Shown here piece after piece: positions 3,739-62,576 of a DNA stretch of 64,000 nt. The first letter of the stretch is position 1. Each line of letters starts with the position of its first letter. The translations under genes were made by a program, and so were the position numbers. This DNA is from an uncultured bacterium (lineage in GTDB: Bacteria > Cyanobacteriota > Vampirovibrionia > Gastranaerophilales > Gastranaerophilaceae). Under the pieces are notes generated by a model. It did not search any database. It worked only from the letters and a program-made list of their open reading frames with translations, and had not been told where the DNA came from. Where the stretch lies: positions 1 to 64,000 of the forward strand of contig CASDWH010000040.1 in the NCBI GenBank assembly GCA_949284715.1. Reading direction: 5' to 3'.

Positions 3739-4132
3739 CAAACCCTATGCAATGGAGCGGGTTATTTCTGCCCTGACATATTTAACACTCGGCTGGGCCG
3801 GAATTATTGTACTTGTCATTCAGGCAGTAACTAAAAAACAGCCGACCAGATTTGTTATGTATCATATTTTGCAGTCTATTTTTCTCTGTTTTGGTTTTTA
3901 TGTAGTATCGGAACTGTTTAATCTGCTTGCAGTTCTAATTGCCAGAATACCGATAATAAACCTCCTTCCAATTTTCTTAAATATGCCTGTTGAAGCATTA
4001 TACGGGCTTTCATTGGTTCAGGCAGTCTGCTATACTGTACTCATTTACTTGATTATCACATCATTGCTGGGCAAATACAGCTTTCTCCCCTGGGTTTCAA
4101 ATATCATTGCCTTCTGGATAAGGGGCAGATAG
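3728..4132 (+). CDS. Tic20-like small integral membrane protein
   Basis: A 134-residue hydrophobic protein with about four membrane segments. The pattern ERVISALTYL, then RFVMYHILQSIFL, a hydrophobic hairpin, and finally FLPWVSNIIAFWI resembles the cyanobacterial Ycf60/Tic20 family (conserved R-F-x-x-x-Q and a C-terminal 'PxxS' turn). Chloroplast Tic20 forms a protein-import pore; the role in bacteria is not established. It overlaps the TPR gene by 11 bp. A DUF4870-type membrane protein is the main alternative. Confidence 0.5.
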   Translation: MSHNKPYAMERVISALTYLTLGWAGIIVLVIQAVTKKQPTRFVMYHILQSIFLCFGFYVVSELFNLLAVLIARIPIINLLPIFLNMPVEALYGLSLVQAVCYTVLIYLIITSLLGKYSFLPWVSNIIAFWIRGR

Positions 4133-9810: not shown

Positions 9811-10611
9811 ATGAAAAAGTTTTGCTTAATATTATTTATTTTGTTAATGGTGTCAAATATTGTTTTGGCAAAAACAGAAGAAAACCTCGGTTTCAGGGGG
9901 CCGCTTAATTATATACAGTCTAAACTTCTTGAACATGTTTTGTCTGTAGAGATTGAAAAAATTACCAGCGGCGATATGAAGATAATTATTAACTCTTACG
10001 GAGCAAAAGCTCTGCGCAGCGGTATTGTGAAATCAGTTGTCGCTGATGGTAGAAATCTCAATATAGACGGTATGAGTATATCTAAAATACACATGGCGAC
10101 AATTACAGAAAATAACAGACTTGATGTTAGTAATCTTAAACATATTAAAATATTAACAGATATACTCGCAGAGTATTCTATTGAATTGACGAATGATGAT
10201 ATAAAAACTATTTTAGAGTCCAAGGAATATAAAAGAGAGATAGCAAAAATTAACAGTAAAATGTCCCCGATTTTTAGAATACAGGGTGTCGATATTTATT
10301 GTCAATTTGACCGATTATTTATAAAACTATTAATTAAATCGGATATGTTGGGCGGTATGATGTTTAATGTCCGAATTTCTACGAATATATATTCTGATGG
10401 TTACAGATCAGGATTATATGATATAAAATTTAATAAGAAATTAAAAATGGGCTTGTCTGATGATATTTTATATATTATAGACAAATTGAATCCGGTTAAT
10501 TTTGTTATAAAAGATTTGGATCATGCAAAAGTTAATACTGCAATAAAAAAAGTTTATGTAGTTGATGACAAAATACAAATATTTGGTACCATAAAAGTAT
10601 ATAAGGATTAA
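9811..10611 (+). CDS. LmeA/DUF2993-like exported lipid-binding protein
   Basis: A 266-residue protein beginning with a signal peptide (MKKFCLILFILLMVSNIVLA). I take the ATG at 9811; the in-frame extension to 9739 runs through a terminator hairpin. The body alternates amphipathic strands (EKITSGDMKIIINSYGAKALRSGIVKSVVADGRNLNIDGM) in the manner of DUF2993/LmeA proteins, which are tubular lipid-binding proteins common in cyanobacteria and actinobacteria. It heads a five-gene operon with the GerMN gene 2 bp downstream. Family assignment is by fold pattern and is moderately sure. Confidence 0.6.
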   Translation: MKKFCLILFILLMVSNIVLAKTEENLGFRGPLNYIQSKLLEHVLSVEIEKITSGDMKIIINSYGAKALRSGIVKSVVADGRNLNIDGMSISKIHMATITENNRLDVSNLKHIKILTDILAEYSIELTNDDIKTILESKEYKREIAKINSKMSPIFRIQGVDIYCQFDRLFIKLLIKSDMLGGMMFNVRISTNIYSDGYRSGLYDIKFNKKLKMGLSDDILYIIDKLNPVNFVIKDLDHAKVNTAIKKVYVVDDKIQIFGTIKVYKD

Positions 10612-10613
10612 CA

Positions 10614-11147
10614 ATGAAAAGAAAAAAGAAAAATAATAATTTAGCAGGTGCAATAGTACTATTAATAACAGTGATAGTATTATTTATTGCAGGCGGTTTT
10701 GTTTGGTTGAATCGTTATGAATTTTTTCCTGCTCTAATTAAAAATGGTGTTTCAGTTTGTTTTCTCGGTAAAAACGGAGAGAATAAAATTATTAAATATA
10801 ATTATGTAGAAGGTGCAAAGCAAACCAGATTTGAATTTGCGATTAGAAAATTAATGGAAGGGCCTTCTGAAATTCAACGTATTTTCAATACTTATTCCGA
10901 AATACCTGCGGACACTAAAATTCTTGCAATTATTCAGGAAGAAAATAAAAACATAATTGATTTAACTCCTGCTTTTAATACCGGAGGCGGGACTGAAAGT
11001 ATTTATAAAAAGCTGAATCAGATTATTGAAACGGTCGAATTGAATACAGAAAAACCGACATATTTATTTATTAATGGAACTCAGACTGATGTATTTGGCG
11101 GTGAGGGGATTATGATTACCCAGCCGTTGACTAAGAATTCATTGTAG
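10614..11147 (+). CDS. Membrane-anchored GerMN-domain protein
   Basis: A 177-residue protein with a basic N-terminus and one membrane anchor (about residues 11-32), followed by a GerMN domain. Family segments are VCFLGKNGENKI, FAIRKLMEGPSE and the ending YLFINGTQTDVFGG. GerMN domains occur in spore-germination protein GerM and in envelope proteins of non-sporulating bacteria, where they probably contact cell-wall material. The gene starts 2 bp after the LmeA-like gene. Orientation of the anchor places the domain outside the cytoplasmic membrane. Confidence 0.8.
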   Translation: MKRKKKNNNLAGAIVLLITVIVLFIAGGFVWLNRYEFFPALIKNGVSVCFLGKNGENKIIKYNYVEGAKQTRFEFAIRKLMEGPSEIQRIFNTYSEIPADTKILAIIQEENKNIIDLTPAFNTGGGTESIYKKLNQIIETVELNTEKPTYLFINGTQTDVFGGEGIMITQPLTKNSL

Positions 11148-11428: not shown

Positions 11429-11955
11429 GAAATAAGCTTAAAATTTATATAAAACCGTTGATTAAAGATGATATTGATGAAGTGGATATAATTGCTCAAA
11501 AAGCGTATGGCACTCACCATTGGTCTAAGGACTCTTTCTACAGCGAACTTCAGAATAACCTTGCGCAGTATTATGTTTCTAAAACAGAAGACGGTGTGCT
11601 GACAGGATTCGCGGGGTACTGGTGTATTATTGATGAAGCACATATTACTACAATTGCTGTAGCACCTGAGTATACAAGAAGACATATTGGAGAATCATTA
11701 TTGAAAGCGATTCTTGACGATTGTTATGAAAAAAAAGTTAAGTATCTTACTTTAGAAGTCAGGGAGAGTAATATTCCGGCTATTTCTATGTATGAAAAAT
11801 ACGGGTTTCAGGCGTTTGGAGTACGAAAAGGGTATTATCAGGATAATAATGAAAGCGCTCTTATTATGTGGACAGAAAATATTTTTTGGGATAAATTTAA
11901 AAATAAGTACAAGGAAAATGTTGCTAAATTAAACGGGATAATAGATATTCTATGA
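11419..11955 (+). CDS. rimI: Ribosomal protein N-acetyltransferase RimI-like
   Basis: A 178-residue GNAT acetyltransferase. ITTIAVAPEYTRRHIGESLL is the acetyl-CoA binding motif A. LTLEVRESNIPAISMYEKYGFQAFGVRKGYY is the RimI-type motif B region. RimI acetylates the N-terminal alanine of S18 and related substrates. I chose the ATG at 11419 because GGGAAAG precedes it; an in-frame ATG at 11407 lies inside the ribosome site region. It overlaps the HicB-like gene upstream by 10 bp and bioY downstream by 4 bp. The C-terminal extension of about 25 residues is unusual. Confidence 0.88.
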   Translation: MSVGNKLKIYIKPLIKDDIDEVDIIAQKAYGTHHWSKDSFYSELQNNLAQYYVSKTEDGVLTGFAGYWCIIDEAHITTIAVAPEYTRRHIGESLLKAILDDCYEKKVKYLTLEVRESNIPAISMYEKYGFQAFGVRKGYYQDNNESALIMWTENIFWDKFKNKYKENVAKLNGIIDIL

Positions 11956-20136: not shown

Positions 20137-21585
20137 ATGAAAATATTATTTGCATCAGCAGAGGTTGCACCTTTTTCTAAGGCAGGAGGGTTAGCGGATG
20201 TTGTAGGCAGTTTGCCTAAAGCTCTGGAAAAAGATGCTGAGATTGCTATATTTACGCCTCTGCACGGATGTATTGATGTTGACAAGTGGGGAATAAAAGA
20301 ACTTGATAATTCTGTAATGTGGATATCTTTTCAAGAGCGCCCGCAGCGGTTTAGATTATTTATGTGCAAACTTCCCGGCACGAATATTAATGTATTTTTT
20401 GTTCATAATGACTGGTATTTTTCATGTTTTAAGGAGGTTTATCCTAAATGGCTTGACCCAAGGTATGAACATGAAAGATATATTGCATTCTCGCTTGCAA
20501 CCTTAGAATACGCTAAACAGCTAAATTTCAAGGCTGATATCATTCATTCTAATGATTGGCATACGGCAATGATACCTCTGTATATAAAAGCAAATTATAA
20601 ATTTGATGATTTTTGGTGTCGTGCTAAAAATGTTTTTGAAATCCATAACCTTGCATATCAGGGAGTTTGGTTTGATGATGTTATTGATTTTGCAAATATG
20701 CGCCGTGATATTGTATATAACGAGTGGGGGTGCGAGCATTGGGGGCGTGTTAACTGGATGAAGGGCGCAATTAATTATTCAGACAAGATAATAGTTGTAT
20801 CTCCAAAGTACGCAGAAGAGATTTTGACGCCGGAATACGGTGAAGGAATGGATTACACACTCAGGGGGCAGACACATAAACTTGTCGGGATTTTAAACGG
20901 TATTGACTATGATGTTTATAATCCAAAAACAGATAAGAATCTTGTTAAAAATTATGATAAAAAATCATTAAAGAATAAAGAAGCAAATAAGAAAAAAGTT
21001 TGTGAATTTTTCGGACTTAAATACAATCCGGACAGGCCGCTTATTGCATTCATTTCACGTCTTGTGCCGCAAAAAGGGTTGGATTTGGTAAGGCAGGTTG
21101 AGAATGAGCTTAAATATATGGAGGCTGATTTTGTATTTTTAGGCAGCGGGGATAAAGATTATGAAAATCTTTTAATCTGGTTATCAAACAATTCTCCTAA
21201 TATTCGTGCTTATATTGGATATAAGGCTGATTTAGCAAACCTTATGTACGGAGGCAGTGACTTTTTCTTAATGCCGTCAGCGTTTGAGCCTTGTGGTTTG
21301 AGCCAGATGATAGCTATGCGTTATGGTTCTCTTCCTATTGTACGTGCAACCGGCGGGCTGGATAATACGGTTGTTGGATATCCGCTAGATAATTCTACAG
21401 GATTTAAATTCTGGGATTACGACGGATGGGCCATGAAGGCTGCAATAGAATGTGCTATGCATGTTTATAAAGATAAATATACTTTGAACGCTATGAGAAA
21501 CAGTGCAATGTCTGCTGATTTTTCCTGGGAAAAGAGTTCTAAAGAATATTTGAAAGTTTACCGTGAACTGGCGGGTAGTCTGTAG
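20137..21585 (+). CDS. glgA: Glycogen synthase, GT5
   Basis: A 482-residue glycosyltransferase family 5 enzyme that transfers glucose from ADP-glucose to growing alpha-1,4-glucan. KILFASAEVAPFSKAGGLADVVGSLP at the N-terminus contains the KxGGL substrate motif. IHSNDWHTA, FISRLVPQKGLDL and the C-terminal PSAFEPCGLSQMIAMRYG are family-specific. GCGGAGG lies 7 bp before the chosen ATG at 20137; an in-frame extension begins inside the upstream terminator. Its last 93 bases before the terminal codons are duplicated at 24245-24337, on the far side of two AAA genes. Confidence 0.93.
   Translation: MKILFASAEVAPFSKAGGLADVVGSLPKALEKDAEIAIFTPLHGCIDVDKWGIKELDNSVMWISFQERPQRFRLFMCKLPGTNINVFFVHNDWYFSCFKEVYPKWLDPRYEHERYIAFSLATLEYAKQLNFKADIIHSNDWHTAMIPLYIKANYKFDDFWCRAKNVFEIHNLAYQGVWFDDVIDFANMRRDIVYNEWGCEHWGRVNWMKGAINYSDKIIVVSPKYAEEILTPEYGEGMDYTLRGQTHKLVGILNGIDYDVYNPKTDKNLVKNYDKKSLKNKEANKKKVCEFFGLKYNPDRPLIAFISRLVPQKGLDLVRQVENELKYMEADFVFLGSGDKDYENLLIWLSNNSPNIRAYIGYKADLANLMYGGSDFFLMPSAFEPCGLSQMIAMRYGSLPIVRATGGLDNTVVGYPLDNSTGFKFWDYDGWAMKAAIECAMHVYKDKYTLNAMRNSAMSADFSWEKSSKEYLKVYRELAGSL
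21485..21577. repeat. 93-bp direct repeat, copy 1 (glgA 3' end)
   Basis: Matches 24245-24337 at 92 of 93 positions (difference C21568/T24328). It lies inside glgA. Together the copies bracket the two-gene AAA cassette. Confidence 0.95.
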
Positions 21586-21591
21586 AATATA

Positions 21592-21625
21592 ATAAAGGGG
21601 CTGAAATTTTCAACCGCTTTATTTA
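21592..21625. terminator. Imperfect hairpin after glgA
   Basis: AATAAAG pairs with CTTTATT, and TGAAA with TTTCA, with internal mismatches. It lies between the convergent stops of glgA and the AAA gene and could end both transcripts. Confidence 0.4.
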
Positions 21626-21631
21626 GTATAA

Positions 21632-22966
21632 TTAGATAGAATGGTTGCTTAATTTTTCCGGGGGAGTATTATATATACTGTCAACAAATGCTATTTTTTC
21701 TCTAAACTCTTGCCTTCGTTCTGGTGATAACTCCGCATCATTATATTTTTGTCCATCGTTACCAGTTAAGTCTTTCATTAATGCAATTATACTATCTGCA
21801 CTCACATTTTTATCATTACCCATTTGTCTGACAAAATCAAAAAATTCAGCAGGAGTAAAAGCCCATTGATTTTTTTCCATTTCATCGACAACCTTTTGAT
21901 AATCAAAAGAGCCAGCATATTCTCTTGTTGCATGATTATTATATAGTGCAAAGTTTATCATCTCTGCATTTTCAAACTTCTCCATCTTTCCAATAGGCAT
22001 TTTTATATCAACTCTGCCTTTACGAAGGAGGGCGCGATCGAGTTCCTCCGGGTCATTGACTGAAATAAGCGCAACTACTCCACGTTTTGCGCTGTTGTCA
22101 AGATTCTGCAAAATAGTGTCTAATAGTTTTGGAGTGCTATTCTTTTGCCTTTTTTCAAGTGTCCCTGCAAGATCATTAATATTAATAATTGTGTATTTAC
22201 CGGTATCTTCAAAGTTTTGTCTTGCATTATTGAAAGTTTTTTCAATTAGTTCAATTTTTGATTCCTCATCATACCCTAAAGAATTTATATCTAAATTTAC
22301 AACATTTGTTCCAAAATGTTTCATGTGTTCGCCAATTTTTTCAGCAATATATGTTTTACCGGTTCCAGGAGGGCCGTATAAAAGAATTCCATTGGGTACA
22401 AGTTCTCTTACTTTCGGTTCTATTGTTTGCTGTGCTAATACCATTGGTGATAAGACATCTTTTATTATCTTGTATTTTTCAAGAGTATAGCCCATTACTG
22501 CATTCATACCTGTTTCTTCACCTTTTTTCTGTTTGATGTAAGAGGCTTGTAAATAGCTGTTATAATACTTTTCTGCTTCTTTTTTATCTTTGCCCATTGA
22601 ACGGCTTATTTTTTCAATATCTGTTTTGTATTCTTTCATTAAATCTTCTAAAACTTTTTCTCTTTTATCTTCATCAACATTAGTTTTAAAATTAATAGAA
22701 GAAATTAGATTATATATAGCAACGATGAGAGCGCCGCCATAAAGCAGTGTTGCTAAGATACCTGCTATGAAAGCACCGGTAAGTACAAAACCAAAATTAG
22801 GGCTGTTATTCATGTTTACCATAGCCCTGCCGTAACTATCCGAAACGAATGGGGATTTGTCATTTGTTATAAAATTGTTCTTTAATGAAGCATCGTTTGT
22901 TTGTTTTTCGTTTTTATATTGGTCTGTATGTCCAATACTTTGCGTACTAATTGCCGGTATTTTCAT
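21632..22966 (-). CDS. Membrane-anchored AAA+ ATPase
   Basis: A 444-residue protein. The N-terminus includes NSPNFGF (residues 54-60) and a membrane segment at about 60-90. The AAA module starts near residue 160. Walker A is GPPGTGKT (198-205). The Walker B region is TIININDLAG, where the usual Asp-Glu reads Asn-Asp. The second region of homology is DRALLRKGRVDIKMPI, with the arginine-finger Arg kept, followed by an AAA lid. It resembles the FtsH/BCS1-like AAA group without a protease domain. An incomplete AAA-like paralogue lies upstream on the same strand, and together they form the cassette between the glgA repeats. Confidence 0.8.
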   Translation of the reverse strand: MKIPAISTQSIGHTDQYKNEKQTNDASLKNNFITNDKSPFVSDSYGRAMVNMNNSPNFGFVLTGAFIAGILATLLYGGALIVAIYNLISSINFKTNVDEDKREKVLEDLMKEYKTDIEKISRSMGKDKKEAEKYYNSYLQASYIKQKKGEETGMNAVMGYTLEKYKIIKDVLSPMVLAQQTIEPKVRELVPNGILLYGPPGTGKTYIAEKIGEHMKHFGTNVVNLDINSLGYDEESKIELIEKTFNNARQNFEDTGKYTIININDLAGTLEKRQKNSTPKLLDTILQNLDNSAKRGVVALISVNDPEELDRALLRKGRVDIKMPIGKMEKFENAEMINFALYNNHATREYAGSFDYQKVVDEMEKNQWAFTPAEFFDFVRQMGNDKNVSADSIIALMKDLTGNDGQKYNDAELSPERRQEFREKIAFVDSIYNTPPEKLSNHSI

Positions 22967-23023
22967 TTTTTCTTTTTACTCCTTTTTTTATATTCCTCAT
23001 TATTTTCTATATTTATTTTATTG

Positions 23024-24142
23024 TTATGTTTCTGTTTGATTTCTTCTATGGATATCTCTCCAGTTTTCTTCTTTTTTCATTGGCGGTGCATTATCTACAA
23101 GTTCTTTATACTTGTCAGGATAAAATTTTGTATTTTTTAGTTCCTGATAGAGTTGACTGGATTCTTGGTATTCTTTTGGAAAATTATCTATTGCGTATTG
23201 CAGCCTCCAGGTAGTTCCGTTTAAATAAGGATTGTAACCATAAGTATTTATTTGTTTCTCTGCATATTTAAAACGAGTATATTGTTGTTCTAGAAAATTA
23301 CCCCAAACTTCTTGGCTATCGTGTTTTAACGGTGGAAGCAGAACACAACGGTCAAGCCGTCCCACTCTGATGGAAGCAGCGTCAAGGTTTGCATTTGTTG
23401 GGGCGTCAGTTATCCATGTACACCCTCTTTTACTAAGGTTATCAGTTAATCTTAATAAAGCTTCTGTGTACTCGTGTTTGTAAAATTCATCCCTATGGTG
23501 CTTAAGTATATCTTTGCGATTCCCCGTAATTGAATCAAGTCGTCTAAGAATAATAGCTGTTTTTTGTCCTGTTTGTTCGTACTTTTCAGCAGCATTGTTA
23601 AAAATCTTATGCAGTAACATCATGTATTCTCCAAGATGTTTATCATGAGTTGTATCAGTTCCTGTGATTTTACTTTTATCCAGCGGCGGAATTTCTACTA
23701 TTTCCCAATTGTACTGTTTTAATTTGTTTACAAATTGTTTTATATGGATATCAGCGGTTTGGGAACCCTCGGGGAAAGTGTAAAATACACCATTTGGGGC
23801 AGGAGTGCTATTGCTAAGAGTTGCTTCTGTAAAATATGACTTGTCAAGTTTATTATTAATATATTTCTCGCTGTATATATCTTCTTTTATTAACATATAC
23901 TTATCAGTTTCTACATTAGGTTTCTTAGCAAAATGTTTAAATATTGCTTTTATTCGTGGTGCAAACTTTGCAGCAGCCCCCAACAATACTCCGGCTGCAA
24001 CTACTAACCCGACTTCGCCGGCAACTGTATAAGTATTGTTCTTAGGCATAGGCTGCTGAATCACATGGGAAGTTGATACAGGAGGCTCTGCTTGTTTAAA
24101 ATTAATAGGTGTTATTGACGAAATAATTTTTAATGTACTCAT
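23024..24142 (-). CDS. Degenerate AAA-like protein (predicted pseudo-ATPase)
   Basis: A 372-residue protein that can be aligned with the neighbouring AAA protein. The lineage signature is TPINFKQAEP (residues 12-21), and a membrane segment lies at about residues 40-65. The Walker A position reads PNGVFYTFPEGSQTAD with no Lys-Thr. The Walker B position reads TAIILRRLDSI. The region IRVGRLDRCVLLPPL still matches the second region of homology. ATP hydrolysis is therefore unlikely. A regulatory or structural partner of the adjacent AAA ATPase is the natural inference. AAAAGG precedes the ATG. A GTAAA-N5-GTAAA repeat lies 78 bp upstream. Confidence 0.7.
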   Translation of the reverse strand: MSTLKIISSITPINFKQAEPPVSTSHVIQQPMPKNNTYTVAGEVGLVVAAGVLLGAAAKFAPRIKAIFKHFAKKPNVETDKYMLIKEDIYSEKYINNKLDKSYFTEATLSNSTPAPNGVFYTFPEGSQTADIHIKQFVNKLKQYNWEIVEIPPLDKSKITGTDTTHDKHLGEYMMLLHKIFNNAAEKYEQTGQKTAIILRRLDSITGNRKDILKHHRDEFYKHEYTEALLRLTDNLSKRGCTWITDAPTNANLDAASIRVGRLDRCVLLPPLKHDSQEVWGNFLEQQYTRFKYAEKQINTYGYNPYLNGTTWRLQYAIDNFPKEYQESSQLYQELKNTKFYPDKYKELVDNAPPMKKEENWRDIHRRNQTET

Positions 24143-24219
24143 TTTTAACCTTTTACATATATTTATTAAACTCCGTAAAAATATTATTTGCGTATTAAGT
24201 TTAAAAAAATACCAAAAAT

Positions 24220-24235
24220 TTTACAAATATTTACA
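24220..24235 (-). promoter_or_regulatory. CpxR-like direct repeat
   Basis: TTTACAAATATTTACA on the plus strand, or GTAAA-TATTT-GTAAA in gene orientation. It lies 78 bp upstream of the AAA-like gene starting at 24142. It is identical to the repeat at 38819-38834. Confidence 0.5.
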
Positions 24236-24244
24236 TGTTTAGAC

Positions 24245-24342
24245 TGAACGCTATGAGAAACAGTGCAATGTCTGCTGATTTTTCCTGGGAAAAGAGTTCT
24301 AAAGAATATTTGAAAGTTTACCGTGAATTGGCGGGTATTTAG
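24245..24342 (+). pseudogene. Fragment of glgA 3' end (direct repeat copy 2)
   Basis: Positions 24245-24337 match glgA 21485-21577 with one difference. The frame stays open and closes with a TAG giving the ending ELAGI, compared with ELAGSL in the intact gene. No start codon or body of glgA is present. The near identity in non-coding sequence points to a recent event. Confidence 0.9.
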
Positions 24343-24471
24343 TGAGGGATATTGAAGAAAAATTCCACTAAATTAATGCGGTAAAATTGTTGTTATTAAA
24401 GACTTTTAGCGATTTAAAGATTTATCTTTTTTGCAAAATGTTAAGTCTGTTATAAATTTATTGTTGTGTGG

Positions 24472-24477
24472 TATAAT
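24472..24477 (+). promoter_or_regulatory. -10 hexamer upstream of the Ycf45-like gene
   Basis: TATAAT preceded by TGTGTGG. The predicted start is near 24484, giving a leader of about 64 nt. The -35 is poor. Confidence 0.35.
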
Positions 24478-24547
24478 AATTATATAGGGAGATAAATTTA
24501 AAACTTAATAAGCCGTTTCAGCCAACCAGAAAGGCATATTATATATA

Positions 24548-26158
24548 ATGAATGAGATACAATTCCATAATGACCTGGACAAAATGTTAGCAATAATGCC
24601 TGACAAAATTGTCAGAAATGTTACGCACGACCAATTGGATGATGTAATTGAGATAGTGCTTGATATAGGGAGGGTTCCGGAAATCAGGCATGCAGGCGGC
24701 AAGATTGAACGTATCGGCTGTGAAGAGATTACAGAGGATGATATTAATTTTATCACAAGTCATCTACAGGAGTTTACATCCGATAACCGTTCGGGAATCC
24801 CCGGAACCCTGCACCGGATTAGCGCAATAAGAAACAGGCAGGGAAAGGTAGTGGGTTTAACTTGTCGTATAGGTCGGGTGATTACGGGGACTATTGCTTG
24901 CATAAAGGATATATGTTTATTAGGGAAGAGTATTTTGTTTTTAGGACGTCCGGGGGTTGGTAAGACTACAAAATTAAGAGAGATATCACGTCTTGTTGCA
25001 GATGAACTCGGCAAGCGTGTTGTTATAGTTGATACATCAAATGAAATTGCAGGCGACGGTGATACTCCGCACCCTGCAATCGGGTGTGCCAGACGTATGC
25101 AGGTTAGACAGCCGGAGTATCAGAAAGATATAATGATTGAAGCTGTTGAGAATCATACTCCTGAAGTAATTGTTGTTGATGAAATCGGAACTGAAGCTGA
25201 GGCACAGGCTGCAAGGACAATTGCTGAACGCGGGGTTATGCTTATTGCGACAGCCCACGGCAACAGTCTAGAAAGTCTTATTAAAAACCCGACACTTTCT
25301 GACCTTGTAGGCGGTGTTCAGTCTGTTACACTGGGTGATGATGAAGCCAAACGCAGAGGTTCGCAAAAAACTGTTCTTGAACGTGAAAAACAGCCGACAT
25401 TTGATATTGTAATTGAGATTATTGACAGAAATACGCTGGCTGTTTATAAAGATGCAGCGGAGGCTGTGGATTATATTTTGCGCGGCTGGCCGATAAGACC
25501 TGAAATCAGAAAGGTCGATAAAGCTTATGAAGAGCCGCAAAAATCTGAACCCCCTGCACAAACGGTTGTTGAACATATTAATAAGATTGAAGAAAAAATT
25601 CTTCCTGAACCGGTTGACAGTCTTAAATTTTCGTTTAACCGGAAGCAGTATGTTGAAGATATGAAGCCGTTTAAGAAGATTTATCTTTATGCGGTATCAA
25701 GAACTATTGTAGAAAAGATTATTGAACGTCTGGATTTGAATGTTGAAATTACCCGTAATATTGATGATGCGGATTTAGTTATTGCACACAAAAATTTTGC
25801 AAAAGGCGGGGCTAAAGTTCTTTCTACAGCAAATGATTACAGACTCCAGATTTTCTATGTAAAAACAAATTCCATGGCGCAAATTCAAAAAGTAATGAAG
25901 GAAGCGCTGGATTTACAAAATCAGGCTGAAAAACTTCAAGGGTATTGCGACGATGCAGAACGGGCGCTTGATGAGGCAAAGGCTGCAATAAATAAAATTC
26001 TGGCGGGAGCAGACCTGATTGAACTTTCGCCGCAAAACCAGCATATCCGCAAATTACAGCACGAACTTGTTGAACAGCATAATTTAGAGAGCAAGTCTGT
26101 GGGGGAAGGTTCTAACAGGCACCTGAGGATAGTCGGCGGGAAAGAGTACACTGCTTAG
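24548..26158 (+). CDS. R3H-domain AAA ATPase, Ycf45-like
   Basis: A 536-residue protein of the cyanobacterial/plastid Ycf45 family, related to SpoIIIAA. Walker A is LGRPGVGKTTKLREI (about residue 137), and Walker B is EVIVVDEIGTEAEAQAA. The segment AKRRGSQKTVLEREKQPTFD is typical of the family. The C-terminal domain ends in an R3H motif (IRKLQHELVEQHNL...SNRHLRIV), which binds single-stranded nucleic acid. No spore genes are expected in this lineage. Its presence in one piece supports a cyanobacterial affiliation. It ends 2 bp before the convergent cca gene. Confidence 0.88.
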   Translation: MNEIQFHNDLDKMLAIMPDKIVRNVTHDQLDDVIEIVLDIGRVPEIRHAGGKIERIGCEEITEDDINFITSHLQEFTSDNRSGIPGTLHRISAIRNRQGKVVGLTCRIGRVITGTIACIKDICLLGKSILFLGRPGVGKTTKLREISRLVADELGKRVVIVDTSNEIAGDGDTPHPAIGCARRMQVRQPEYQKDIMIEAVENHTPEVIVVDEIGTEAEAQAARTIAERGVMLIATAHGNSLESLIKNPTLSDLVGGVQSVTLGDDEAKRRGSQKTVLEREKQPTFDIVIEIIDRNTLAVYKDAAEAVDYILRGWPIRPEIRKVDKAYEEPQKSEPPAQTVVEHINKIEEKILPEPVDSLKFSFNRKQYVEDMKPFKKIYLYAVSRTIVEKIIERLDLNVEITRNIDDADLVIAHKNFAKGGAKVLSTANDYRLQIFYVKTNSMAQIQKVMKEALDLQNQAEKLQGYCDDAERALDEAKAAINKILAGADLIELSPQNQHIRKLQHELVEQHNLESKSVGEGSNRHLRIVGGKEYTA

Positions 26159-29622: not shown

Positions 29623-29721
29623 AATTTAATTTTATTACAAAATACTGTAAACGAAAACTGTGTTAAAATTTAAAAATATTTAAAATTTTTCATAAATATT
29701 CATTTATTTATGGTTAAAGGC

Positions 29722-29750
29722 TTGTACTGTATTTAAATATATGTTATTAT
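29722..29750 (+). promoter_or_regulatory. Promoter with leaderless spacing
   Basis: TTGTAC (29722-29727), 17-bp spacer, TATTAT (29745-29750), then six Ts and the ATG at 29757. The duplicate gene has the same arrangement (31806-31834) with one extra T. Confidence 0.55.
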
Positions 29751-29756
29751 TTTTTT

Positions 29757-30437
29757 ATGAATGTAGATAAATATTTGGGAATAATAACTAACAGATTAAG
29801 TTTTAATTATATAGCTTTTCAGGCGGTGACTTTATTTTTGATTTTTGTTGCTGTATTGGCGGGAACTGCGCAGTTTGCATTATTCCCTATCCCGGATAAA
29901 GATTTGTTACCATCTGTCTTTGGGGTTGCAATCTTTTGCTTCTTCATAATATTTCTCTTTATTACTTTTCTTGAATTTATTTACTTTTTTCGTAAAAAAC
30001 AGCTTTCACAAAAATTATTCAGCAAGCAGGTGATGATATTCCACTTATTATTTCCCTATTTGTTATGTACAATTTTAGTGTTTAATCGTCCAACAACGGA
30101 ATTAATGATAGATCCGCATGCTTTTGACATGTTATTATATCTTATTATGCCTGGTCTATATATATCTATTATTTTGTTTTCTTTTATTCCTGCGTTTTTA
30201 TTTTTAGTAATAGAATTGGCGGGGAGAATAAGTCTTGAGCCGATGCCATATCTGAAAAATATCTGGCGGTTCTGGGGGCTTTTGATAGCATTATCTCTTT
30301 TTCTGTTTTTTATTATTGGTTATATTGCTAATTTTTTTTGGACAATGTTTTTGGGGTTATTATTATTTCTTTTGAATCCTCTCTGGTTGCTGCTATATTT
30401 AATACCGCTGCTTTTTGTATTGTTTGTCCGGGTTTAG
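29757..30437 (+). CDS. Duplicated membrane protein, copy 1
   Basis: A 226-residue very hydrophobic protein with five or six membrane segments and a short charged N-terminus (MNVDKYLGIITNRLSFNY). One cytoplasmic basic loop FFRKKQLSQKLFSKQ lies near residue 80. It is about 90% identical to the protein at 31842-32519. Differences cluster in the loop at about residues 110-130 and near the C-terminus. No transport motif is recognised. It has no Shine-Dalgarno. The duplication includes the promoter. Confidence 0.75.
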   Translation: MNVDKYLGIITNRLSFNYIAFQAVTLFLIFVAVLAGTAQFALFPIPDKDLLPSVFGVAIFCFFIIFLFITFLEFIYFFRKKQLSQKLFSKQVMIFHLLFPYLLCTILVFNRPTTELMIDPHAFDMLLYLIMPGLYISIILFSFIPAFLFLVIELAGRISLEPMPYLKNIWRFWGLLIALSLFLFFIIGYIANFFWTMFLGLLLFLLNPLWLLLYLIPLLFVLFVRV

Positions 30438-30495
30438 TTGGTTATTGTGTTGTTAAAAAATGCGTTGCAGTAATCTGCAACGCGTCTGTAAAATA

Positions 30496-31518
30496 TTATA
30501 AATCTACATATTTATCTTCATCTAGCCAGAAGTCAATAGCGTGACCGAGTTCCGGTTCTTCCATATCAACTAGTTTTTTATTCGGGTCGAAATTACCTGG
30601 CCAATCGCGCCAATGCGCTCTAACTTTTGTGCCGTCGTGTCGTTTATACTCTTTTACATAAACTTGTCCATTGTGATACCCTCCGAAATCTTTGTTGATA
30701 AAATCTGCGGGGTTGGTGTAATTCGTGGATTTCTTTGTTTCGTATTTTGCAATATTGGAATTTGTGTTATGCATAAGCAGTCTTGAATCAAAATCTTCTA
30801 TTATTCTAGTAGTTTTATCAATGTGTGTTCTGATTGGATTTTGTATGTATAAATCGTGCTTTGATATTTCTTTTTGTGTGGTTATTGGCTGTTGATTTTC
30901 AAGCAAATGATAGTATAATCTTCTTTCGTTTTTTAAACTGCCCTTTTCATTCATTTGATAAACTTTACCTATGTGTTTATCCCCGTAGGTTCCGGTTACG
31001 ATATCATTTTTGTTACAATAATTGATAATGTTATCAGTATTGGAATAGTTAATATTATAGCTTTCTAAAATCTCACCAACACCAAACGGATTAAAAACAA
31101 CAGTATCAGTGCCGGTTAGTACACCTAATATTGTACTACAACTGCCTGCAAGGGAGTCGCCTGTGAGTATTATACGGCCTTGATTTTTGTATTTGTTATA
31201 CAAGGATAATATATCAAACATTTGTGAGGGGATGTTTTTGGAGATTATTTGAAAGTCGTTTTGTAAATCGTAAATGGATTGCATGTTGCGTATATTTTGT
31301 AAAAAATGTTCTTTTTCGAGAAGATCAGTTCCTTTGCTTGCAATAATGATATCATCGCCGCGTTTATATACGATACCGAAGTATCCTGTATTAGGATTGC
31401 GGTAAGTGCATAGAGGTTTACAGCTTGAAGGCGGCGGAAATTTCTTTTCGTTGTACGTTGATAAGGCACACCGTCTTGCATCTTCGTGTAATTCAATGTC
31501 TGTTATAAAATTTTTCAT
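30496..31518 (-). CDS. Lipase-like alpha/beta hydrolase
   Basis: A 340-residue protein resembling class 3 lipases. The strand YFGIVYKRGDDIIIASKGTD precedes a helix region and then the nucleophile elbow IILTGDSLAGSCSTI, a G-x-S-x-x-G form with Asp in place of the usual His before Ser. VVFNPFGVG follows, as in class 3 lipases. The last third has a KRHDGTKVRAHWRDWPG motif, like the 'DGTxVRxHxR' repeats found in secreted or phage-associated proteins. There is no signal peptide. AAGGAGAA precedes the ATG. It lies between two copies of a membrane gene. The substrate is unknown. Confidence 0.6.
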   Translation of the reverse strand: MKNFITDIELHEDARRCALSTYNEKKFPPPSSCKPLCTYRNPNTGYFGIVYKRGDDIIIASKGTDLLEKEHFLQNIRNMQSIYDLQNDFQIISKNIPSQMFDILSLYNKYKNQGRIILTGDSLAGSCSTILGVLTGTDTVVFNPFGVGEILESYNINYSNTDNIINYCNKNDIVTGTYGDKHIGKVYQMNEKGSLKNERRLYYHLLENQQPITTQKEISKHDLYIQNPIRTHIDKTTRIIEDFDSRLLMHNTNSNIAKYETKKSTNYTNPADFINKDFGGYHNGQVYVKEYKRHDGTKVRAHWRDWPGNFDPNKKLVDMEEPELGHAIDFWLDEDKYVDL

Positions 31519-31567
31519 AAGTTCTCCTTTTTTTTTATTAGATTAATATCTGAAAAGTGTTGATATT

Positions 31568-31779
31568 TGTAATAAAACAGGGTCAATGTATATTTTAAAT
31601 GTAGGGGTATAACTATATACTTTACAAGTGTATTTTATTAACGATATTATCATATAATATATAAACATAAATGTCAAGTATAACTTGTTAATCTAATTAA
31701 ATATTGTACAAATAGTAAATTGTATGTAAAATACTTTAGGCTGCTTTTTAAAGGCGCCGGCAGGCTTTAGCTCCTATTT
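31568..31779. repeat. Duplicated intergenic block, copy 1
   Basis: About 212 bp matching 32573-32783 at roughly 88-90% by eye. The best-conserved part is the right end, containing AAAGGCGCCGGCAGGCTTT. It also holds GTAAA-N6-GTAAA (31715-31730). It contains the upstream region of the lipase-like gene and lies before the second membrane gene. Confidence 0.85.
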
Positions 31780-31841
31780 ATATTCATTTGTTTATAATTA
31801 AAGGCTTGTACTGTCTTTAAATATATGTTATTGTTTTTTTT

Positions 31842-32519
31842 ATGAATGTAGATAAATATTTGGGAATAATAACTAACAGATTAAGTTTTAATTATATAGC
31901 TTTTCAGGCGGTGACTTTATTTTTGATTTTTGTTGCTGTATTGGCGGGAACTGCGCAGTTTGCATTATTTCCTAATCAAGATAAAGATTTATTACCATCT
32001 GTCTTTGGGGTTGCAATCTTTTGCTTCTTCATAATATTTCTATTTATTACTTTTCTTGAATTTATTTACTTTTTTCGTAAAAAACAGCTCTCACAAAAAT
32101 TATTCAGCAAGCAGGTGATGATATTCCATTTGTTATTTACTTATTTGTTGTGTACAATTTTAGTGTTTAATTGTCCAACAACGGAATTAATAGTAGATTC
32201 ATATGCTTTTGCTCCATTATATCTTCTTTTTCCGGGTTTATATATATCTATTATTTTGTTTTCTTTTATTCCTGCGTTTTTATTTTTAGTAATAGAATTG
32301 GTGGGAAGAATAAGTCTTGAGCCGATGCCTTATCTGAAAAATATTTGGCGGTTCTGGGGGCTGTTGATAGCATTATCCCTTTTCCTGTTTTTTATTATTG
32401 GTTATATTGCTAATTTTTTATGGACAATATTTTTGGCGGTATTTTTATACTATCTGAATCCTCTCTGGTTGCTGCTATATTTAATACCGCTGCTTTTTGT
32501 GTTATTTGTCCGGGTTTAG
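31842..32519 (+). CDS. Duplicated membrane protein, copy 2
   Basis: A 225-residue near-copy of the protein at 29757-30437, with the same hydrophobic layout. Changes are mainly in the loop around residues 110-130 (NCPTTELIVDSYAFAPLYLL here) and in the last transmembrane segment. Both copies are intact, so both may be used. The upstream TTGTAC-N17-TATTGT is also copied, ending 7 nt before the ATG. Function unknown. Confidence 0.75.
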   Translation: MNVDKYLGIITNRLSFNYIAFQAVTLFLIFVAVLAGTAQFALFPNQDKDLLPSVFGVAIFCFFIIFLFITFLEFIYFFRKKQLSQKLFSKQVMIFHLLFTYLLCTILVFNCPTTELIVDSYAFAPLYLLFPGLYISIILFSFIPAFLFLVIELVGRISLEPMPYLKNIWRFWGLLIALSLFLFFIIGYIANFLWTIFLAVFLYYLNPLWLLLYLIPLLFVLFVRV

Positions 32520-32572
32520 TTGATTATTGTGTTGTTATAATTATTATTCAGCTTGTTAAGGGAGCGTTACTT

Positions 32573-32783
32573 TGTAATAAACAGGGTAAATGTATATTTT
32601 TAATGTAGGGAAATGATTATATAATTTACAAGTGTATTTTGTTAATAATATTATTATATAATATATGAACATAAATGTCAAGTATAACTTGTTGCTATAA
32701 TTAAATATTGTACAAATGGTAAACTGTATGTAAAATATCTTAGACTGCTTTTTAAAGGCGCCGGCAGGCTTTAGTTCCTATTT
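32573..32783. repeat. Duplicated intergenic block, copy 2
   Basis: Counterpart of 31568-31779. It follows the second membrane gene directly and leads into der. No lipase-like gene lies between, which suggests that copy was deleted after duplication. Confidence 0.85.
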
Positions 32784-32803
32784 GTTTTTATTCCTCTCCG
32801 TGT

Positions 32804-61282: not shown

Positions 61283-61359
<77 letters not shown>

Positions 61360-61367
61360 TTTAAAAT

Positions 61368-61402
61368 AAAGGGTTTTAGCAATTTAGCTAGAACCCTTTT
61401 TT
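61368..61402 (+). terminator. Terminator after tRNA-fMet
   Basis: A 13-bp stem (AAAGGGTTTTAGC with its complement, one T-G pair) with a 6-nt loop, followed by six Ts. Confidence 0.88.
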
Positions 61403-61469
61403 AATGCTTTTGTGTAATATTTGTGTAATTGGTTGTTATTTAAGAATAATAAAAATAAAATAAAATAAA

Positions 61470-62576
61470 TTAATTTGCTTTTAACTCAATTACTTTTCTA
61501 TTTCTTTCTGCATAGTTTGATAATGTTTCTATTGCTTCAAGAGATTGTTCTGTAATTGCGTGAGCATATCTCATTGTTGTATGAATATCGGAATGTCCTA
61601 ATATATCTTTTACCATTGTTATAGGAACTCCAGCACCTACCATTCTTGTAGCTGATGTATGTCTTAAATCGTGGAATCTAAAATTTTCAACATTTGCCTT
61701 TAAACACAAGGCATTAAAAGACCTTTTAAGGTCTGAATATCTTGTTTTTGTTGTATGATTCACAAATACATATTCGCAAACTTTATTTTTATATGCTTCT
61801 TTTAGTATGCTCATAACAACAGAATTTATAGGAATAAATCTTTTCTTGCCGTTTTTTGTATCAAGTAATGTAATCTTTTTATTTTCAAAATTAACACATT
61901 TCCAAGTCAAACTTAATATTTCTTCTTTTCGCATGCCTGTATTAAGTGCAAATTGAATTATAGCTTTTAAATGACTTAATCTTCCTGTACAATTATTTAA
62001 TAATCTAAATTCTTCTTCGGGTGTTAAATATCTTTCTAGCTTGTTTTCTTGTCTTAACTTTTTAACACTTTTGCAAGGGTTTTTAGTTAGCCAGCCATTA
62101 TCAATAGCAATATTAAACATTTTCCTCAAAACTTCAATATCTCTATTGATAGTTGTTGCAGAAATATTTTTTTCGGGGATTTTAACCCCGTCAATAATTT
62201 TAGCTTTTGATTTTACTTCATTTTTTCTTGCTATTTTATACTTTTCTATATCCATAGGGGATATATCTTTTAATTGTCTGTTGCCCCATAATTTTTCAAA
62301 TTTATAGGCTTTGGCTACATTTGTTTTATATGACCTATGGTTAGTTGTAGAATATTCAACATAGACTTTTACAAGTTCTTTAAAAGGTTTGCAACCAATA
62401 TTTTCAACTAAATCTAATTTACCTCTCAAAAGGTCGGTTTTAAAAGCATTAAAGTAATTGTCGGCATCAATTCCTGTCATTGCAACTGCAAGATTTTTCT
62501 TACTGCGGGTATCAATTCCCATAGTTGAAGATTTTGATTCTAATTCATCAATTATAAGTGTATTTTTTTGAATCAT
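61470..62576 (-). CDS. Tyrosine-type site-specific integrase
   Basis: A 368-residue phage-type integrase. The N-terminal SAM-like domain (about 60-150) has TNVAKAYKFEKLWGNRQLKDI. The catalytic domain holds FALNTGMRKEEILSLTW (Arg I), FRFHDLRHTSATRMVGAGV (H-x-x-R) and ILGHSDIHTTMRYAH (His and Tyr nucleophile). It is oriented away from the element, with its stop 111 bp from tRNA-fMet, the usual layout for integration at a tRNA 3' end. The ATG at 62576 has a weak AAAAATG context. Confidence 0.93.
   Translation of the reverse strand: MIQKNTLIIDELESKSSTMGIDTRSKKNLAVAMTGIDADNYFNAFKTDLLRGKLDLVENIGCKPFKELVKVYVEYSTTNHRSYKTNVAKAYKFEKLWGNRQLKDISPMDIEKYKIARKNEVKSKAKIIDGVKIPEKNISATTINRDIEVLRKMFNIAIDNGWLTKNPCKSVKKLRQENKLERYLTPEEEFRLLNNCTGRLSHLKAIIQFALNTGMRKEEILSLTWKCVNFENKKITLLDTKNGKKRFIPINSVVMSILKEAYKNKVCEYVFVNHTTKTRYSDLKRSFNALCLKANVENFRFHDLRHTSATRMVGAGVPITMVKDILGHSDIHTTMRYAHAITEQSLEAIETLSNYAERNRKVIELKAN

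Follow-up and report, generated by a model that had tools for sequence, protein, structure and literature searches.

How did two minus-strand AAA genes come to lie between two copies of the end of glgA in an uncultured member of the Gastranaerophilaceae? The window, the whole stretch of 64,000 nucleotides that was analysed, is part of a 74-kb contig (C40) of genome G000, a 2.0-Mb draft in 42 contigs, whose gene content may point to a gut melainabacterium (Gastranaerophilales). The features of the locus are the following.

20137 to 21585, plus strand: glgA (glycogen/starch synthase), the target gene (Pfam Glyco_transf_5, 2e-66; congener alignment)
21485 to 21577, plus strand: repeat copy 1, 93 bp, glgA 3′ end, left junction
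21578 to 24244: inserted DNA, 2667 bp, missing in 6/6 congeners
about 21591 to 21624 (limits approximate): hairpin, candidate shared terminator between convergent genes (fold z −2.2 on the plus strand, −3.7 on the minus strand)
21632 to 22966, minus strand: AAA1, 444 aa (Pfam AAA PF00004, 6.6e-18; family alignment)
23024 to 24142, minus strand: AAA2, 372 aa, a degenerate AAA protein (family alignment; VCP/Cdc48 profile match, 2e-21)
24245 to 24337, plus strand: repeat copy 2, 93 bp, the original glgA end severed from its gene
24338 to 24547: original spacer downstream of glgA, conserved among congeners
24548 to 26158, plus strand: SpoIIIAA-like/R3H ATPase gene, right neighbour in all congeners

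A repeat search reproduced the two copies at exactly the coordinates given in a first-pass annotation of this DNA, with 92 of 93 positions identical, a spacing of 2760 and a C/T difference at repeat position 84 as the sole mismatch. The self-match has a BLAST E value of about 2e-40, which excludes a chance origin, and the copy pair is unique in the genome. The same annotation had described a second copy that keeps the frame and a stop with no gene body, two AAA genes between the copies and no integrase among them; the protein profiles listed above and the reading frames bear this out. Copy 2 reads ...E L A G I stop, with frame and original stop intact and the gene body absent. Copy 1 ends in GGTAGTCTGTAG, directly abutting insert DNA, and reads ...E L A G S L stop, the final two codons and the stop being supplied by the insert. 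The glgA gene persists with an altered C-terminus, in which -SL replaces -I. The GC content of the insert is 33.2%, compared to 36.1% for the window. Neither the ORFs nor the Pfam matches between the repeats include an integrase or a transposase, and the two ends of the insert resemble inverted repeats of each other no more than shuffled sequences do. We therefore rejected a DDE transposon, which lacks its terminal inverted repeats here and would be expected to leave a short duplication rather than one of 93 bp.

The direction of the event can be read from the relatives. In all six sister species glgA is followed directly by the SpoIIIAA-like gene, some 150–220 bp away, with a single glgA end, and a search with the whole region as query found no AAA genes at the glgA site in any of the six. 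The closest empty site, in G005, where the glgA and SpoIIIAA-like parts lie on abutting contigs, reads ...GGATATTTAGTGAGGGATATTGAAG and is colinear with copy 2 and the right flank in the window; therefore copy 2 stands in its original context. Each 93-bp copy differs from the congener segment at 9–21 of 93 positions, compared to 1 of 93 between the copies, so the duplicate is recent and derives from the resident allele. Both copies carry this allele, including two bases unseen in any congener. The first-pass annotation had proposed such a comparison, in which an empty site would speak for insertion, whereas finding the arrangement in all relatives, with repeats that have diverged, would speak against it; the sisters have empty sites, and the latter pattern was not encountered. 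Based on these alignments, we read the glgA arrangement as a recent insertion that took place after the split from the sampled sisters.

Recombination between direct repeats would leave exact empty sites as well, so that the arrangement could in principle be ancestral and the AAA genes lost from the sisters. We consider this history extremely improbable: the arrangement is missing from six species, and an ancestral state followed by six losses would be expected to show diverged repeats. Whole glgA genes are 82–86% identical between species of the genus. Because the repeats are 99% identical compared to a glgA difference of 14–18% between species, the duplication should be younger than the species splits, unless conversion has kept the copies alike.

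What was inserted is a pair of related genes. The family alignment shows an intact Walker A motif in AAA1 (GPPGTGKT), and the protein probably has an N-terminal membrane anchor, judged by eye; in PADLOC it has weak matches only (IetA, TRIP13). AAA2 has no match in Pfam, while its family profile matches the AAA domains of VCP/Cdc48. In the AAA2 family alignment the Walker A motif is lost or degenerate and an R-x-G-R motif is invariant; we infer that AAA2 may form a mixed ring with AAA1, in which it would be the pseudo-ATPase. No AAA2 homolog was found in the six congeners, and 19 of 288 family genomes (its own counted) have homologs of low identity at other locations. Six genomes of genus g57 carry a two-gene unit, a degenerate AAA gene followed by an AAA gene, between an oppB-like gene and nrdD, and two more (G253 and G309) carry it at other places. 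We take the AAA pair to be a conserved two-gene module. Long flanking repeats were absent around AAA modules at 12 other loci. Searches for the source gave no phage DNA matches, did not find the left junction in viral contigs and returned nothing from plasmids beyond AAA proteins of about 25% identity; neither a donor molecule nor junction microhomology for the insertion was found. A common N-terminal F-K/G-A/G motif proved unconvincing (0.69 against 0.53 per 1000 residues).

Separately, we observed that three genera share a conserved gene cluster for AAA-related proteins of very large size (L093 2572–11988, L094 6056–15807 and L095 1–9405). The proteins have about 1040, 1070, 350 and 650 aa, with a fifth at times, and the L093 cluster adjoins an IS110-like transposase gene, identified by eye.

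The glgA locus is not the only one of its kind. In 944 kb, about half of the genome, we looked for direct repeats that are unique, nearly identical and enclose 0.4–9 kb, and found one further case, a SoFic gene, giving two events in all. No gene-sized insertion with such repeats was found in the samples of G002 (375 kb) and G012 (400 kb). The second case lies on contig C14 (L131), where positions 2486–2554 and 3838–3906 are 94% identical over 69 bp, or about 78 bp with a 4-bp slip. Here crcB and folC converge, and the repeat includes the 3′ ends of both; between the copies lies one minus-strand SoFic gene (PADLOC SoFic, 1.6e-112; Fic domains in Pfam), with no integrase or transposase in the insert. 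In five of six congeners crcB adjoins folC with a single repeat copy and no insert, and none of these five has a close homolog of the SoFic gene. As at glgA, the duplication carries the resident allele. No motif common to the two duplications or to the insert ends rose above shuffles in this comparison of two cases. From the alignments at both loci, we regard the insertion at glgA, its direction and its recency, as well as a second like event in the same genome, as established. A palindrome, AATATATTTGTG...CACAAATATATT, adjoins copy 2 of the repeat on C14.

Other repeat pairs in the 1.72 Mb scanned were rejected. Those on C34 and on C1 of G002 are dispersed repeats, that on C16 reflects paralogous tandem genes, and the remaining ones are a tRNA-Met att island and a tandem gene array. 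On C34 (L159) the repeat has 160 bp (10469–10629 and 11680–11840) and is dispersed over several contigs and congeners; some contig ends carry it. A further 353-kb scan of loci gave tandem arrays or internal repeats alone. Within the window, at 29696–32792, a gene for a 226-aa membrane protein is duplicated, the DNA identity reaching about 92% across 764 bp; the copies flank a 340-aa minus-strand gene and are accompanied by a 223-bp repeat of 89% identity. This looks like a tandem gene array, since it resembles an array with more copies in G002 (L106), and perhaps it consists of effector and immunity genes. Window positions 61283–62576 hold a tRNA-Met gene and an adjacent tyrosine integrase gene (61470–62576). 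The tRNA-Met 3′-end repeats of 45–46 bp recur twice more on the contig, at 69148 and 73883 (L112, C40 69148–73927), and mark tandem islands. The tandem islands carry a DNA methyltransferase-like gene, an Abi_2-like gene and a possible toxin-antitoxin pair, and the last segment is without an integrase.

Could the glgA arrangement be an artefact of assembly, or could the 93-bp repeat have linked sequences from a mixture of strains? The draft genome has 42 contigs, and a relative, G194, has a 77-bp contig-edge overlap at the glgA end. Nevertheless, we consider this very unlikely. The copies are separated by 2.7 kb within a contig of 74 kb, differ by one base and have four distinct flanks; the sequence to the right corresponds to the sisters' empty site, and a second locus has the same form.

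A more serious rival, and the main one, is an element that integrates site-specifically, or what is left of one after decay (CIME). In this case a tyrosine recombinase, since lost or acting in trans, would have joined a circle with an attP matching the glgA 3′ end to the host site; the element would have supplied the new glgA end and pushed the old one rightward. An excised circle would have a single 93-bp copy linking GTTTAGAC to GTCTGTAG. A target at a gene 3′ end, a restored gene and a displaced copy beside the original flank are the classic outcome of such integration (PMC5704250). Moreover, both glgA and crcB-folC are targets at gene 3′ ends, and the same contig holds the tRNA-Met integrase together with an att-flanked segment that lacks one. 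Against this, no integrase or remnant of one is present in the 2.7 kb, 92 of the 93 attP positions would have to agree with the resident allele, and the crcB case would require a second integrase with an unrelated site.

To see whether glgA is a hot spot, we searched 191 family genomes for orphan glgA ends. Only G000 and G194 gave two glgA-end matches, and the second end in G194 was rejected as the 77-bp contig-edge overlap. Among 183 glgA-bearing relatives there was no other true second glgA end, although such a search could miss an orphan of 33 aa in very distant genera. In G194 the contig break falls exactly at the glgA 3′ end (C9 position 1 and C11 position 81524; L125, L126, L127, L128), which marks a branch point in the assembly graph and could be due to chance or to strain variation at the same site.

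The first-pass annotation had offered two options for the locus, an integrative element that supplies a replacement gene end and a duplication by recombination. The former is not favoured, as no integrase or remnant was found, the relatives lack second ends, both copies carry the resident allele and the second insertion, with its unrelated duplication, is integrase-free too; overall we hold it to be rather unlikely. The latter proved the better fit and has a published precedent.

The primary accounts of this precedent, insertion with long target duplication, are reportedly those of Nobusato et al. 2000 (H. pylori) and Furuta et al. 2010. A further account describes it from two H. pylori strains, often but not strictly with restriction-modification genes (PMC1643837), and others give long target duplications of varying length, on the order of 100 bp (PMC3874152; also PMC3031569). 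As in H. pylori, the inserts described here are gene-sized and without transposase or integrase, close relatives have the empty site, and the repeats consist of target sequence that differs between insertions (93 and 69–78 bp). Unlike in H. pylori, the inserts carry an AAA pair and a SoFic gene rather than restriction-modification genes, the lineage is another one, and both targets are gene 3′ ends. CIMEs and IMEs at the 3′ end of a housekeeping gene likewise have direct repeats that include the gene end, a restored gene and accessory cargo (PMC5704250), but there is no integrase and no autonomous relative at the glgA site, and the repeat exceeds the 8–60 bp usual for integrases and CIMEs (PMC5704250). 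Transposed genes in Arabidopsis are also non-transposon genes flanked by genic direct repeats from the target locus; that host is a plant, and ectopic recombination was proposed there (PMC2869330). By its structure, the glgA case is closer to insertion with long target duplication than to an element driven by an integrase. What is new here is the cargo and the lineage; insertion with long target duplication itself is already known.

We therefore think it probable that the AAA pair entered the glgA 3′ end by insertion with long target duplication. This reading is favoured because neither insert has an integrase, the two duplications are unrelated and share no motif, the C14 repeat covers the ends of two convergent genes, the repeats represent the resident allele and the 183 relatives show no sign of a glgA hot spot. 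On the other side, both targets are gene 3′ ends, where tyrosine integrases also act, the genome does have a tRNA-Met integrase with 46-bp repeats, the events number two in 944 kb with none in the G002 and G012 samples, and neither donor nor junction microhomology was found. According to this reading, a module of a membrane-anchored ATPase and a Walker-less partner would have been acquired horizontally, presumably from a foreign source, and inserted at the glgA 3′ end after the split from the sampled sisters, doubling 93 bp of the target with one copy on each side. A recombinase-free route seems likeliest: the target may have broken, or a fork stalled there, with incoming DNA used in the repair, and the target may have been copied twice by fill-in of long staggered ends or, alternatively, because the template was switched to a position 93 bp further upstream. 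The AAA genes would have retained their own promoter side and the hairpin between the convergent 3′ ends.

Numerous accessory and defence genes pass from one bacterium to another without a visible mobile element. Since a second insertion of the same kind is present in this genome, genes here seem to enter without a mobile-element enzyme. More tentatively, such enzyme-free insertion might be a general route for small accessory, possibly defence, units rather than just for restriction-modification genes, directed at gene 3′ ends and active now in this lineage; we regard this extension as possible but doubtful. A unique near-identical repeat of a gene tail about 1–3 kb away would be the sign by which such events can be recognised. 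With two fresh insertions in one genome, empty sites in the sisters and duplications of 70–90 bp, the little-studied long-duplication route becomes testable outside Helicobacter and beyond restriction-modification genes.
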